Positions 4,834 to 9,759 of a DNA stretch of 33,350 bases are shown here, one piece after another. Position 1 is the first letter of the stretch, and every line of letters begins with the position of its first letter. The position numbers were made by a program, and so were the translations under genes. The notes under the pieces were generated by a model. The model saw nothing but the letters and a program-made list of their open reading frames with translations. It did not search any database and was not told the DNA's origin. This stretch comes from Candidatus Ryanbacteria bacterium CG10_big_fil_rev_8_21_14_0_10_43_42 (GTDB lineage Bacteria; Patescibacteriota; Minisyncoccia; Ryanbacterales; 2-02-FULL-48-12), in contig PFEF01000004.1 in assembly GCA_002793915.1 (NCBI GenBank), forward strand, positions 1 through 33,350, read 5' to 3'.

Positions 4834-5397
4834 TCAACCAAGCCGAAGATCTTCGGGCAAAAACTGATCAATTTCGGTATCCGACCAAGTGTAGTGTTCT
4901 CCACCCGAAGCGCCAGCCGTATGCAAACGCTTTTGCGCTTCTGCATATTCTTTCGTTCCTGTTTGCGGGGCAAGATCAGAAATTACTTGATATTCAGCTT
5001 GAAGCGAATCGCGGCGAGCAATGACGTTATTTGGCGGTGTTTGTTCGTTCATTGTGTCCACTATTAGAGAACGGTACTTATCCCGCAGTTGCATATATTT
5101 CAGTGCCGAATTTTTATGTGCGAGCGCAATTTGTTCAAAATTGAAAGTGAGCTGAACAATTAAAAAAATTATTTCGCCTGCCGCAATACCTGAGCCCAGA
5201 TAGGAGAAAACAAGATTTGATTGGTTTGCCACTTGAAGAAGAAGCATAATCAGTGCAAGTACCACGATGCCAATGTTCGCAATTTTCACTTTAAGGGCGT
5301 GGCTTCCCGCATTTTCAGCGGCCACCTCCTGAACTTTGTGAGTGAAAACGGTATTTGCGAACGATTGTCGAATATTTGCGAGATTTTTTGTATCCAT
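4834..5397 (-). CDS. SLATT-domain two-helix membrane protein, predicted CBASS effector
   Basis: The 187-residue protein has two adjacent transmembrane helices (about 38-57 and 62-84), followed directly by a long amphipathic helix (FEQIALAHKNSALKYMQLRD) and a polar tail. This is the arrangement of SLATT domains, pore-forming effectors found with cyclic-nucleotide defence enzymes. The ATG at 5397 lies 4 bases after the stop codon of the CD-NTase gene, which fits translational coupling; an upstream in-frame ATG at 5448 would overlap that gene and give an unlikely N-terminus. By known SLATT/SMODS pairing, the nucleotide messenger would trigger membrane permeabilisation and cell death or dormancy. 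The messenger is not predictable from sequence here. Confidence 0.8.
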   Translation of the reverse strand: MDTKNLANIRQSFANTVFTHKVQEVAAENAGSHALKVKIANIGIVVLALIMLLLQVANQSNLVFSYLGSGIAAGEIIFLIVQLTFNFEQIALAHKNSALKYMQLRDKYRSLIVDTMNEQTPPNNVIARRDSLQAEYQVISDLAPQTGTKEYAEAQKRLHTAGASGGEHYTWSDTEIDQFLPEDLRLG

Positions 5398-5401
5398 AAA
5401 T

Positions 5402-6697
5402 TTATCCGATTGGCACAAACACGTGTCCAACGGCCACGCATTGACCATTTTTAATTATGTAACACTCCACATAGTGCTCACCATGATAGAGAGTGCTCTC
5501 TTTTTTTGTTTCTGACCCATCATCATCAGTTATCTCGCCGCGCAGGGCACCCAAATCACGCGCATCATTACCAAAGTTTCTTACCTTCCACTTCACGCTA
5601 TACGGATCGGGAACGTTGTGGGAAATTATCTTAAACAAAAGACTTGCGTTTTTTTGGATACGATAGCCTCGCCTTTGAAACTCACTCAAAAGCCAGTGAT
5701 TCTGTCGCCATCCATTCTGGTTGATGTTTACGTCTACTGTCAATGAATAGGCCGGGTTGAGAACGGTGGCGATGCCGTATTTGCGATCAAGGTGTTCCTC
5801 TGTCGTTGCCGGAAAGAGTGCCTGTAATTTTGATACAATTTGGTGGAAGGTGGCGACGATACCCTTCTCCGTTTCGGCAATAGGAAAATCGTCGCCGAAT
5901 ATCTTTTGCCACTCTTCGGTTGCTTTATCCAGTTTCTGTTCGTTTTCGAGATCACAGGCCTTGGTTGCCCGACTTAGTGCAGTGTTCAAATGGCTTCGTA
6001 GGCTCTCATCCGAGACAGAGTTGTAAAAATATGAGAAGAAATCACGGATTGTCGGCGCATACTCGCCGCCACTGTTGGTGGAGAAGAAATCAAGAACTTT
6101 ATTCTCGATTGCGTACGATTTCACTTGCGCCGTGCATAACTCCGACCATTTCTTAATCATTCGTATCAACGCCTTCGTCTTGCCCGTTTTTTCATCGGAG
6201 GTCTGTATCCTCTTAATTTCAGTACGCGGGTCGACGATTTCCCAACTTCCGCCGTTTTCTGAGTTTGGGATAGTGAATGTGCCGTCCGTGTTTTCCCATG
6301 CAGGTTGCACTTCGACGTTGTGTTGCGGATCCGCAAACTCCAATACAACAACCTTACCGAATGCCTTGATTGGTGTGTCGGGATACTTTTCTTCCAGTAT
6401 CGTCTTGATGTCCTGAAGAAGTTGGGACTGGCAGTTTGAGTTGTTATCGTCGTATTGAGAAAATTTTTCCGGCGGCATAATGAAAATGACATCAATGTCT
6501 CGGGCGGGGCGAATGTGGGTTCGCTTACCATAGGAGCCGATGAGAAATCGTGTACCACCATCGTATTTGGTGTCAGGGTAGTAGTATGAGTGGAGCTTTC
6601 CGCACACGCCGTCATACTTCCGCTTCGCGTCCTCACGTTGGGCTTGCGTCAGTCTTATGTTTTCGTAAAACTTCTCAAATTGTTCTTGGATAGCCAT
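5402..6697 (-). CDS. CD-NTase (SMODS nucleotidyltransferase) with AGS-C sensor domain, CBASS cyclase
   Basis: This 431-residue protein has the Pol-beta-type nucleotidyltransferase signature of CBASS cyclases: G54-S55, then the metal-binding pair D67-I-D69 (RPARDIDVIFIMP) and a third acidic residue E129 in HNVEVQPAW. A helical substrate-recognition region follows (about 160-300). The last ~115 residues match the AGS-C sensor fold that often ends SMODS proteins (WKVRNFGNDAR ... HYVECYIIKNG). All catalytic residues are intact. With the SLATT gene it makes a minimal two-gene type I CBASS; no Cap2/Cap3 ubiquitin-like or HORMA/TRIP13 genes are present. Transcription is predicted from the shared divergent promoter at 6753-6782, giving a leader of about 50 bases with no clear Shine-Dalgarno. 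Confidence 0.88.
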   Translation of the reverse strand: MAIQEQFEKFYENIRLTQAQREDAKRKYDGVCGKLHSYYYPDTKYDGGTRFLIGSYGKRTHIRPARDIDVIFIMPPEKFSQYDDNNSNCQSQLLQDIKTILEEKYPDTPIKAFGKVVVLEFADPQHNVEVQPAWENTDGTFTIPNSENGGSWEIVDPRTEIKRIQTSDEKTGKTKALIRMIKKWSELCTAQVKSYAIENKVLDFFSTNSGGEYAPTIRDFFSYFYNSVSDESLRSHLNTALSRATKACDLENEQKLDKATEEWQKIFGDDFPIAETEKGIVATFHQIVSKLQALFPATTEEHLDRKYGIATVLNPAYSLTVDVNINQNGWRQNHWLLSEFQRRGYRIQKNASLLFKIISHNVPDPYSVKWKVRNFGNDARDLGALRGEITDDDGSETKKESTLYHGEHYVECYIIKNGQCVAVGHVFVPIG

Positions 6698-6731
6698 AAT
6701 TTGGTGCGATGGTTATGTGGATAAGTCGTAC

Positions 6732-6760
6732 TTGTTTAGGTTATGTTTAGGTAGTATACT
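6732..6760 (+). promoter_or_regulatory. Promoter of the lexA-like/R-M operon (TTGTTT-N17-TATACT)
   Basis: A -35 TTGTTT (6732-6737) and a -10 TATACT (6755-6760) are separated by 17 bp. Transcription would start at or next to the ATG at 6767, and there is no Shine-Dalgarno, so the operon's first gene is probably read from a leaderless mRNA. Confidence 0.65.
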
Positions 6761-6764
6761 AAAC
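6734..6764. promoter_or_regulatory. Symmetric operator GTTTAG-N8-CTAAAC with an extra direct half-site
   Basis: GTTTAG (6745-6750) and CTAAAC (6759-6764) form a perfect inverted repeat centred on the 10-bp palindrome TAGTATACTA (6752-6761), which is also the -10 region of both divergent promoters. Another GTTTAGG lies exactly 11 bp upstream (6734), one helical turn away. The size and symmetry fit a LexA-type dimer site, and binding would block both promoters. The LexA-like gene starts 2 bp further on, so autoregulation is likely. Confidence 0.65.
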
Positions 6765-6782
6765 TCATGAAGCAAGAGTCAA
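6753..6782 (-). promoter_or_regulatory. Divergent promoter of the CBASS genes (TTGACT-N18-TATACT)
   Basis: On the minus strand TTGACT (6782-6777) and TATACT (6758-6753) are separated by 18 bp. The -10 overlaps the plus-strand -10 because the centre is palindromic, and the -35 lies inside the first codons of the lexA-like gene. Only one polymerase could occupy the site at a time. Confidence 0.55.
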
Positions 6783-7393
6783 GCACCAAGACAGACAAAC
6801 CAACCAAGCGAGAAGCGGAAGTGCTCCACTTTGTGAGAGAATACCGCCGCGAGAATGGTTACTCACCCTCAATGGTGGAGATAGCCGAGCATTTTAAGAT
6901 ATCTGTTCCAACGGTACACCAACACATATATTCACTTCGCAATAAAAATCTGCTTCTGGTAGACAAGGGTAAAAAACGCTCAATCGTTACTCCACAAGAT
7001 TACAAATCACAGCTTGTGGATATTCCGCTTCTCGGCATTATATCTGCCGGTGGTCCGATTGAAGCGATAAGAGACGAGGAGATGATCGGCGTACCGCGTT
7101 CAATGCTCCCAACGCCATCCCAACACTATGCACTCAAGGTTTCCGGTGTGAGTATGATTGAGGAAGGAATTATGGATGGCGATATCGTTATTGTTCACGA
7201 CCAGCAAACGGTGGATGATGGCGAGAAGGCAGTAGCATATATGCCGGATCGAAACGAGGTTACGCTTAAAAAAATTTATAGAGAAAAAAATCGGATCAAA
7301 CTTGTCCCTGCTAATAAAACCATGAGTCCGTTCTACGAAACCAATGTGCAGATTCAGGGGAAAGTTGTCGGAGTATTAAGAAAAGAAATATAA
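6767..7393 (+). CDS. lexA: LexA-like self-cleaving repressor (HTH plus S24 peptidase)
   Basis: The 208-residue protein has the LexA layout. A winged HTH spans about 10-70 (GYSPSMVEIAEHFKISVPTV), and an S24 peptidase domain spans about 85-205. The cleavage site is A94-G95 (IISAGGPIEA); the catalytic dyad is Ser129 (SGVSM) and Lys168 (VTLKKI). All key residues are present, so RecA-stimulated self-cleavage is expected. Length is normal for LexA. It is the first gene of an operon with the DNA methyltransferase (7-base gap) and restriction enzyme, and its own operator also covers the CBASS promoter. It may be the cell's general LexA or a dedicated defence-island regulator; the window cannot decide, and the symbol is given with that caution. 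Confidence 0.88.
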   Translation: MKQESSTKTDKPTKREAEVLHFVREYRRENGYSPSMVEIAEHFKISVPTVHQHIYSLRNKNLLLVDKGKKRSIVTPQDYKSQLVDIPLLGIISAGGPIEAIRDEEMIGVPRSMLPTPSQHYALKVSGVSMIEEGIMDGDIVIVHDQQTVDDGEKAVAYMPDRNEVTLKKIYREKNRIKLVPANKTMSPFYETNVQIQGKVVGVLRKEI

Positions 7394-7400
7394 TAAATAT

Positions 7401-8975
7401 ATGTCATTAGTAACAATACAAGATGCATCAAAATGGGCGACAGATTATCTCGAAAAAGAGGTATCGCCTACAAACATTTCATATCTTGTACAGTACGGCA
7501 AGGTAAAAAAGCACGGTGAAAACGGCTCTACGCTCGTTGATTTAAATGATTTGAAAAAATACTACGCTTCGTGGCGTGGGCAACGCGAGGTTGATTGGAA
7601 AAAGAAACTTGGTGACGATTTGAACTGGGCACTTTCTTTTGACCATCTGCGTGAGAAAGACACAACAAAACATGTTCATCGGCTCCATCCATATAAAGGC
7701 AAATTTATCCCTCAACTCGTTCAATATTTTATTGATGACCATATGGACGATTTCAAAACGGATGTGTATTTCAAGAAGGGTGATGTTGTTTTAGACCCTT
7801 TCTCTGGCTCGGGTACAACTTTAGTGCAAGCAAATGAAATGGGTATTCATTCTGTTGGAATAGATATATCCCATTTCAATTGCATGATTAGCGATGTAAA
7901 ACTGCACGCATACGATTTTATATCACTAAGACAGGAAATAGATCGTATCAAGAAGGCGATTACAAGCTACGAATATGACAACAGCATTGTCGCTTTCGAA
8001 AACGAGCTTATGCAGGAAATGTATAAGTTTAATACTGAATATTTTCCAAGTCCTGGCTTTAGATATCAACTCCAGCAAGGAAAAATTAATGAAAATAAAT
8101 TTGCAGAAGAAAAAGAAAAGGAATTTTTAACGGTTTATAACCGACTTGTGAAAAGGTATGGTGTTGAACTAAAACAAACTAAAGCTGATAATTTCTTAGA
8201 TAAATGGTACTGCCGCAATGTACGAAAAGAGATTGATTTTGCTTTTAACCTTATCAAAGAAATTAAAGATGTTTGTAATAAGAAATCATTGGCAGTCATT
8301 CTTAGCCGCACAATTCGCTCGTGTAGGGCAACGACCCATTCTGATCTAGCAACGCTCAAAGAGCCGCAACTGACAACGTATTATTGCTGGAAGCACAAGA
8401 AAATCTGCAAGCCGCTTTACTCGATTAAGTGTTGGTTTGACCGGTATGCAAGCGATACACTCGCACGACTCCAAGAATTTGACCGTTTGCGTGGTGAAGC
8501 GCACTTCACTGTATTGCCATCCGATTCTCGGACAGTCAATATTTTTTCGGAAGCTAAAAAGCGCAACAAAGCACTTCATAAAGTTTTGGAAAAACAAAAG
8601 ATTCGTGGCATATTCACTTCGCCACCGTATGTTGGGCAAATTGATTATCACGAACAACACGCTTACGCTTATGATCTGTTTGGTTTTGATAGAAAGGATA
8701 ATCTAGAGATTGGCCCGCTTTATAAAGGCCAAGGATTAGAGGCGCGCCGCTCTTATGTTGAAGGAATTGCTGACGTGCTAAATAATTGCAAAAAATATTT
8801 ACAAGATGACTATGATATTTTCCTCGTTGCCAATGATAAGTATAATTTGTATCCAGAAATTGCAGAAAAATCAGGAATGAAGATTGTTAATCAATTTAAG
8901 CGACCAGTACTAAACAGAACAGAGCGGGATCGCAACCCGTATTCCGAAATAATTTTTCACTTTAAATCACAATAA
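7401..8975 (+). CDS. DNA methyltransferase of a type II R-M system (probable N4-cytosine type)
   Basis: The 524-residue protein has the AdoMet-binding motif I DPFSGSGTT (132-140) followed at 406-410 by the catalytic motif TSPPY, the form typical of N4-methylcytosine enzymes. About 265 residues separate the two and probably contain the target-recognition region. Residues about 1-60 resemble a small MerR/excisionase-like helical DNA-binding unit (NISYLVQYGKVKKHG), which is not part of the core enzyme. The gene lies between the LexA-like repressor and the endonuclease, with gaps of 7 and 4 bases, so the three are one operon. Its role is to protect host DNA from the neighbouring nuclease. The target site cannot be read from the sequence; if the nuclease is TdeIII/MjaII-like it would be GGNCC. 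Confidence 0.87.
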   Translation: MSLVTIQDASKWATDYLEKEVSPTNISYLVQYGKVKKHGENGSTLVDLNDLKKYYASWRGQREVDWKKKLGDDLNWALSFDHLREKDTTKHVHRLHPYKGKFIPQLVQYFIDDHMDDFKTDVYFKKGDVVLDPFSGSGTTLVQANEMGIHSVGIDISHFNCMISDVKLHAYDFISLRQEIDRIKKAITSYEYDNSIVAFENELMQEMYKFNTEYFPSPGFRYQLQQGKINENKFAEEKEKEFLTVYNRLVKRYGVELKQTKADNFLDKWYCRNVRKEIDFAFNLIKEIKDVCNKKSLAVILSRTIRSCRATTHSDLATLKEPQLTTYYCWKHKKICKPLYSIKCWFDRYASDTLARLQEFDRLRGEAHFTVLPSDSRTVNIFSEAKKRNKALHKVLEKQKIRGIFTSPPYVGQIDYHEQHAYAYDLFGFDRKDNLEIGPLYKGQGLEARRSYVEGIADVLNNCKKYLQDDYDIFLVANDKYNLYPEIAEKSGMKIVNQFKRPVLNRTERDRNPYSEIIFHFKSQ

Positions 8976-8979
8976 TCCT

Positions 8980-9759
8980 ATGGCTTTATCTAAAGAACAA
9001 GTAAAAGATGTCGAAGATACGCTCAAAGCGAGTCTTCGAAACAAGTTTAAAAATCACAACCCCGAGCCGGCTTCAATGCCTTTCCATACTCGTTTACTTG
9101 GTAAGGATCGCCTGGCGCTTTATTCATTTATCCATTCGCTAAATACAAATTTTGGTACAACTATTTTTGAACCGGTTGCGCTTGCGCTTGCTCAAAAGAA
9201 TTTTAAGCTTGCTGTTTCGCAAGCAAAAGTAGGAAATGAAATCAGCAGTGGAGCGCAAGCAGAAATTCAGCGGATTATAGACGGACTTACCACGGCGACA
9301 ACATCACCCAACAAGTCGGAGGAAATTGAAAAGATACGAAAAGTTGCGAAAACTGGCGAAATGATAAAAGTAAAACCGACCAAGATTGATCTCATGTTTG
9401 AATCTAAAGGTGGTGAATATTTTTTGTTTGATATAAAAACAGCCAAACCAAATGCTGGCGGTTTCAAGGAGTTTAAACGAACACTGCTTGAGTGGGTTGC
9501 CGTGATGTTGGCGGATAAACCGGAAGCAAAGGTAAACACATTTATTGCCATTCCATACAACCCTTACGAGCCAGAACCCTACAATCGTTGGACAATGCGC
9601 GGTATGTTGGATTTAGAAAACGAGCTTAAAGTAGCCAACGAATTTTGGGATTTTCTTGGTGGCAAAAATACTTACAAGGACTTACTTGATTGTTTCGAGC
9701 GTGTGGGTATTGAATTGAGAGATGAAATTAATAACTACTTTAAGCGCTTTAATAGATAG
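8980..9759 (+). CDS. Type II restriction endonuclease, TdeIII/MjaII-like
   Basis: The 259-residue protein carries a PD-(D/E)XK nuclease core: D137 in KIDLMF, then D151-I-K153 in LFDIKTAKPN, with a candidate helix glutamate at E95. The stretch around DIKTAKPNAGGFKEFKRTLLEW recalls the TdeIII/MjaII restriction enzyme family (known target GGNCC), an assignment made from memory of the family and not from a search. It begins 4 bases after the methyltransferase stop codon, as expected for a paired R-M system where the methyltransferase is made first. Operon position downstream of a LexA-type repressor suggests inducible expression. All putative catalytic residues are intact. Confidence 0.78.
   Translation: MALSKEQVKDVEDTLKASLRNKFKNHNPEPASMPFHTRLLGKDRLALYSFIHSLNTNFGTTIFEPVALALAQKNFKLAVSQAKVGNEISSGAQAEIQRIIDGLTTATTSPNKSEEIEKIRKVAKTGEMIKVKPTKIDLMFESKGGEYFLFDIKTAKPNAGGFKEFKRTLLEWVAVMLADKPEAKVNTFIAIPYNPYEPEPYNRWTMRGMLDLENELKVANEFWDFLGGKNTYKDLLDCFERVGIELRDEINNYFKRFNR

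Follow-up and report, generated by a model that had tools for sequence, protein, structure and literature searches.

A LexA-family repressor gene between restriction-modification and CBASS genes as a likely shared switch in a Patescibacterium

Known controllers of immune operons and the present locus

It is still poorly understood what keeps costly immune systems silent and what links first-line restriction to the cell-suicide systems that act later. Among the regulators of restriction-modification (R-M), the C proteins are an integral part of the R-M system, and in HTH-methyltransferase fusions such as M.SsoII the regulator is joined to it; neither kind is known to have an S24 self-cleavage domain. 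Other regulators, namely CapK with CapS (PMC13373217), CapW/BrxR (PMC9122588, PMC9122601) and CapH with CapP, are found at the promoter of an immune operon and are relieved by DNA damage, relying on a kinase together with a STAS protein, on a WYL domain or on a separate protease. In 88 of 443 cases capKS directly follows an R-M system, placed between R-M and systems such as CBASS, according to a paper that does not mention LexA (PMC13373217). RptR is an autoregulated repressor that is encoded with R-M and binds direct repeats in its own promoter, each of which contains a palindrome (PMC12255303); that paper does not mention LexA, S24 or SOS, and its passages covered here report no divergent second module. 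For LexA itself, the direct repeat GTTC-N7-GTTC has been described in Alphaproteobacteria (PMC8565304), and another paper lists the LexA of Patescibacteria among the direct-repeat binders (PMC7739468, where its ref. 52 is Sanchez-Osuna et al. 2017, doi 10.1111/1462-2920.13826); LexA motifs of this kind have thus already been published for Patescibacteria. Our literature search, which covered the SOS literature on Patescibacteria in part, returned no paper joining LexA, R-M and Patescibacteria and no report of an R-M/CBASS arrangement under LexA.

The window, by which we mean the whole stretch of 33,350 nucleotides that was analysed, belongs to a genome of 904 kb with an estimated completeness of 98%. 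On its minus strand lies a CBASS pair with overlapping genes, consisting of a 2TM effector of the SLATT_4 type (4834-5448, 204 aa; PF18186, E=1.4e-28; PDLC00696 effector) and a nucleotidyltransferase with SMODS and AGS_C domains (5402-6697, 431 aa; PF18144 and PF18134; PDLC00796, E=2.6e-107). On the plus strand, a gene for a LexA-family repressor (6767-7393, 208 aa) is followed by the genes of a type II R-M system that are 4 bp apart, which encode a DNA methyltransferase (7401-8975, 524 aa; PDLC03249, E=2.3e-232; N6_N4_Mtase) and an endonuclease of the TdeIII family (8980-9759, 259 aa; PF09520, E=2.2e-93). The outer flanks are ordinary chromosomal genes (VKOR, thioredoxin, type IV pilus, NusA).

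The repressor has a LexA-type winged HTH (PF01726, 39.9 bits with a cut-off of 23.7) and an S24 domain (PF00717, 92 bits, also over cut-off), and alignments place the A94-G95 cleavage bond and the S129/K168 dyad in it. Its best solved relative is LexA 3k2z, aligned over residues 13-206, and by these matches the window protein is a member of LexA. A RecA gene is present in the genome. The Pfam content of LexA_DNA_bind plus Peptidase_S24 places the protein outside CapW, CapH/CapP and CapK/CapS, and PADLOC gave weak matches of its HTH region to Csa3/CARF models. A second, distant LexA-like gene is found on contig C5 of the same genome (2500-3132 of locus L155); where its protein is probably cleaved it has Cys-Gly instead of Ala-Gly, and TGTGGATAA lies upstream of the gene.

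LexA-like proteins were found in 88 of 384 genomes of the class (E<=1e-30), to which we added 80 further loci from named genomes, in collections where the relatives are mostly Patescibacteria, and more from the phylum. The upstream DNA was aligned for the 16 closest loci including the window, which come from many families and several phylum-level groups. We also considered phage-borne spread of the gene and rejected it, since the P0001 search of viral contigs gave no match, for two operator matches in viral contigs the ORFs of the stretches examined included nothing LexA-like, and the matches in phages and plasmids were ordinary LexA or phage repressors with less than 60% identity.

Divergent promoters and the predicted operator

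The promoter of lexA and R-M consists of a -35 TTGTTT at 6732-6737, of which each position is kept in 13-16 of the 16 loci, and a -10 TATACT at 6755-6760, of which T-A-T-A and the final T are invariant in all 16. On the minus strand, the divergent promoter towards CBASS has a -10 TATACT at 6753-6758 that overlaps the plus -10 (TATAMT in 16 of 16 loci) and a -35 TTGACT at 6777-6782 inside lexA codons (10/12 by the scanner). All of these hexamers had been named in the initial annotation with the right spacings, TTGTTT-N17-TATACT and TTGACT-N18-TATACT. In the relatives the minus -35 reads TTGACT or TTGACA, and its distance to the -10 is 18 bp in 15 loci and 17 bp in the remaining one (L150). Since the plus -10 ends 6 bp from the lexA ATG, the lexA mRNA is probably leaderless; the predicted start sites are 6767 on the plus strand and about 6746 on the minus strand. 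From the predicted minus start site to the divergent gene the distance is 26-55 nt in 14 loci.

The two lexA codons that hold the minus -35 are 100% identical among the aligned loci, the average for the 172 well-populated columns being 46%; columns 43 and 44 are also 100% identical. In one locus (L164) the ATG lies 3 bp further off and the minus -35 is still found at 18 bp, and in another (L149) the box survives though its codon is a stop. In addition, the pattern A[GT]TATA-N16-19-[AT]GTCAA was present in 27 of 105 lexA upstream regions, fused forms included, where shuffles give an expectation of 0.085. Coding constraint alone as the cause of the conserved AGTCAA was rejected on the basis of the codon identity outlier, the spacing in L164 and the promoter pair in fused relatives. 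By these alignments the divergent promoter is real, with selection at the nucleotide level acting on the minus -35 within coding DNA.

L149 itself carries an in-frame TAG near the start of lexA (6797-7481) with operator and divergent promoter intact; its divergent gene is of the PDC-M48B type, and no methyltransferase lies downstream of lexA.

The predicted operator is the direct repeat TTAGGT-N5-TTAGGT at 6736-6752 of the plus strand (copies at 6736-6741 and 6747-6752, 11 bp from start to start), which falls in the -35/-10 interval of the lexA promoter and on top of the predicted divergent start site. The exact pair is present in 13 of the 16 loci; the second copy is invariant in all 16, and the first is degenerate in three (L154, L042, L045). 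More distant lexA genes have TTCGGT half-sites at the same spacing, so that GTTCGGT-N4-GTTCGGT equals the geometry of GTTC-N7-GTTC. The general form TTHGGT-N5-TTHGGT occurs exactly in 36 of 103 lexA upstream regions versus 0.03 expected. When the window's own genome was searched for a regulon, by pattern matching only, TTAGGT-N5-TTAGGT was found once, just upstream of lexA, and TTHGGT-N5-TTHGGT twice, the match away from lexA being TTCGGTTCGCCTTCGGT. An SOS-regulon operator shared by several repair genes was not found in this genome, where the TTAGGT form is confined to lexA, and a global SOS regulon was rejected in the absence of a second TTAGGT repeat. Because the repeat occurs about once per genome, it points to a dedicated local switch rather than an SOS regulon, and by this test the protein would be LexA-like in mechanism and no global SOS regulator.

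The initial annotation had instead proposed the palindrome GTTTAG-N8-CTAAAC as the operator. It is indeed present at 6745-6764 and ends 2 bp before the LexA ATG (6767), but of the 16 loci the window alone has it in full, and alone carries the right arm CTAAAC; in the other 15 the arms match 1-4 of 6 positions. Since this arm is confined to the window and the TTAGGT repeat at nearly the same place is kept, the direct repeat is the operator candidate, and the palindrome was rejected for its poor conservation across the 16 loci. Lack of conservation in relatives was one of the refuting conditions set in the initial annotation; it applies to the palindrome and not to the repeat. A search of the 904 kb genome for the palindrome gave one exact match and no enrichment of the motif, with 13 places at up to 2 mismatches versus 59 for the reversed control. 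The palindromic centre TAGTATACTA exists at 6752-6761, but it is not concentric with GTTTAG-N8-CTAAAC, their centres being 2 bp apart. Likewise, the GTTTAG at 6734-6739, 11 bp upstream, is where it had been reported, but what was taken for a third half-site belongs to the direct repeat. The palindrome is probably a chance overlap of the second repeat copy with bases past the -10.

About 11 bp before the operator lies a perfect DnaA-box sequence, TTATCCACA (6716-6724, minus strand), of which this is the only copy in the window. Its position is kept in most relatives, and it is also found upstream of LexA-methyltransferase fusions. TTATCCACA or TGTGGATAA was present in 58 of 103 lexA upstream regions, versus about 1.5 expected from the density in the same loci. 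Over whole genomes, TTATCCACA was over-represented in most of the 12 tested; in the window's own genome the enrichment is modest, with 28 matches versus 17 for the control.

Exchange of methyltransferases and divergent cargo

On the LexA tree, the lexA genes with a TTAGGT-type repeat form one group (95 with four neighbours; 15 of the 16 at 99). They are nearly always followed by a gene for a DNA methyltransferase, and the types of these enzymes are unrelated. Within the TTAGGT clade and its nearest kin, the methyltransferase is TdeIII-type in the window, L144, L146, L147, L041 and L164; C5 in L145, L042, L043, L165, L166 and L152; D12 in L045, L148 and L150; N6_N4 in L154; and Eco57I-like in L151 and L153, those of L146, L150, L164, L165 and L166 being typed by homology or sequence resemblance and not by a Pfam scan of their own. 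The divergent cargo is mixed as well and frequently a defence system, with CBASS in the window, L041, L166, L167 and L147 (where it starts 460 bp away), PDC-M50/ThsB (ThsB-TIR) in L144, bSEFIR in L165, PDC-M48B in L149, GIY-YIG in L145, L146 and L045, and DUF2130 in L150 and L154. The GIY-YIG and DUF2130 cargo was not recognised as defence, nor was that of other loci, for example SDH_protease and unknown proteins. Five different CBASS pairs adjoin such LexA genes, and a sixth lies beside a LexA-methyltransferase fusion (L171). Placed on the LexA tree, these states imply a minimum of 8 switches in methyltransferase type, 9 in cargo type and 5 between CBASS and non-CBASS. As the cargo is variable and in part not recognised as defence, the switch is not specific to CBASS; as it recurs in distant relatives with other R-M and defence genes, it appears to be an immunity control cassette that can be reused.

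In a sister clade, the LexA HTH-S24 half is fused to DNA methyltransferases and precedes them. All 48 of the fusions scanned match LexA_DNA_bind and S24, and the A-G cleavage bond and the Ser/Lys dyad are invariant among them. The methyltransferase parts belong to several unrelated families (N6_N4, 29; C5, 10; D12, 9; and related families), with examples in L011, L024-L038, L051-L117 and others. A third LexA clade looks like the ordinary SOS LexA, judging from the one case checked, which adjoins uvrB-uvrA. In this locus (L103, 1785-7603) the LexA gene is divergent from uvrB and uvrA, which is how the gene of an ordinary SOS regulator should lie.

Few genomes of the class encode SMODS proteins, namely 10 of 384, with 11 hits in all. 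Three of the 11 (G000, G085, G110) have a LexA-methyltransferase locus in divergent orientation no more than about 0.5 kb away, where random placement of about 110 such loci in roughly 300 Mb gives, by our estimate, about 0.01 expected, a null that is lenient since defence genes cluster anyway and inflate the co-location. In G019, a distant LexA-S24 gene sits between a DpnII/methyltransferase pair and a CBASS pair; here (L174, 4547-9064) the genes for DpnII, an N6_N4 methyltransferase, LexA-S24, a TM protein and the CBASS nucleotidyltransferase are all on one strand. Two other loci (L172, 1645-9045; L173, 1050-8497) have a SMODS protein and a small membrane protein inside an apparent type I R-M operon, between what appear from sequence resemblance only to be hsdM and hsdS. 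In a further one (L175, 7077-8753), a RadC (UPF0758_N plus JAB) fused to a C5 DNA methyltransferase adjoins an HpaII-type endonuclease and a CBASS pair.

A shared switch and competing explanations

Our preferred reading, to which we assign a probability of about 0.7, is that an autoregulated, dedicated LexA-family switch governs both immune modules from a single bidirectional promoter. A dimer of LexA would bind the repeat at 6736-6752 and cover both the -35/-10 spacer of the lexA-methyltransferase-endonuclease promoter and the CBASS start at about 6746; because the repeat spans key parts of both promoters, one bound dimer would lower both. RecA filaments forming on damaged or phage-derived single-stranded DNA would lead to LexA self-cleavage at A94-G95, upon which both modules would rise together, with a presumable benefit against phage. 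As judged from sequence comparison, the mechanism as a whole is likely. The locus description in the initial annotation is partly confirmed and its interpretation partly supported: the LexA-family gene does lie between the TdeIII R-M and CBASS pairs, the divergent promoters are kept in 16 of 16 loci, and defence cargo is repeatedly found on their divergent side, but the palindrome did not stand up as operator. CBASS is not an obligatory partner, the divergent position being taken by many kinds of gene. The idea of a shared switch gains support from the relatives, though its operator was misread.

This proposed switch resembles the direct-repeat LexA of SOS systems in its HTH and S24 domains, cleavage bond, Ser/Lys dyad and 11-bp repeat period, and in the GTTC-N7-GTTC geometry of GTTCGGT-N4-GTTCGGT in distant relatives; moreover, one LexA clade of these same groups stands beside uvrB-uvrA. 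It differs from such systems in having one operator per genome, on its own promoter, with a TTAGGT variant of the half-site, and in belonging to a clade that is tied to DNA methyltransferases with defence cargo on the divergent side. With the Cap regulators it shares the location at the promoter of an immune operon, this location and the predicted operator being conserved across the 16 loci, and presumably the relief by DNA damage. Unlike them, it consists of one LexA, predicted to be self-cleaving, with a single operator between overlapping divergent promoters. The LexA repeat also differs from those of RptR and their internal palindromes.

One alternative is that LexA governs its own operon and R-M only, as a homeostatic or establishment controller like the C proteins, and that CBASS is its neighbour through the general clustering of defence genes and is transcribed from a promoter of its own or from a weak one that is not regulated. 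The linkage to methyltransferases, seen in 48 of 48 fusions and nearly all standalone copies of the clade, is much tighter than that to CBASS, the cargo is variable, and in this class CBASS is frequently a neighbour of R-M also where a LexA of this type is absent (L172, L173, L175, L176), all of which speaks for this explanation. Co-repressing a methyltransferase with its endonuclease, moreover, needs a tight balance, which counts against a shared switch. However, restricting LexA to its own operon does not account for a divergent promoter kept in every aligned locus and in 27 of 105 regions, with selection at codon level, short leaders to the cargo and the operator on its predicted start site, and we therefore consider it unlikely. 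A different possibility accepts the switch and replaces the signal: negative autoregulation, possibly with DnaA acting at TTATCCACA, would time expression according to the cell cycle or to arrival in a new cell. The frequency of TTATCCACA upstream of lexA and its over-representation in most of the genomes tested are consistent with this, but the S24 active site and A-G bond kept in the window protein and the 48 fusions are hard to explain without self-cleavage, the enrichment in the window's genome is modest and DnaA binding is putative, which makes this option somewhat less probable still. As for a symmetric LexA operator at 6745-6764, known LexA sites are often palindromes and the 6+6 match is perfect and single in the genome; given the loss of its arms in the relatives, and given that a direct repeat of the same geometry recurs widely upstream of LexA genes, we regard it as very improbable.

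Under the preferred reading, restriction would be coupled to a cell-suicide system in the simplest way, by one LexA operator that lies between R-M and CBASS, the known regulators CapW, CapH/CapP, CapK/CapS and RptR all being of other kinds. It would also provide a function for the LexA-methyltransferase fusions that are widespread in these mostly uncultured bacteria with very small genomes. More tentatively, and with the balance slightly against it, LexA may serve Patescibacteria-type bacteria as a general immune socket, self-cleaving and acting at one bidirectional operator, into which unrelated R-M and abortive-infection modules have repeatedly been swapped. If this were true, restriction damage or phage DNA would raise the second line of defence, and self-cleavage of the fusion proteins would in addition release their methyltransferase from the DNA-binding half.
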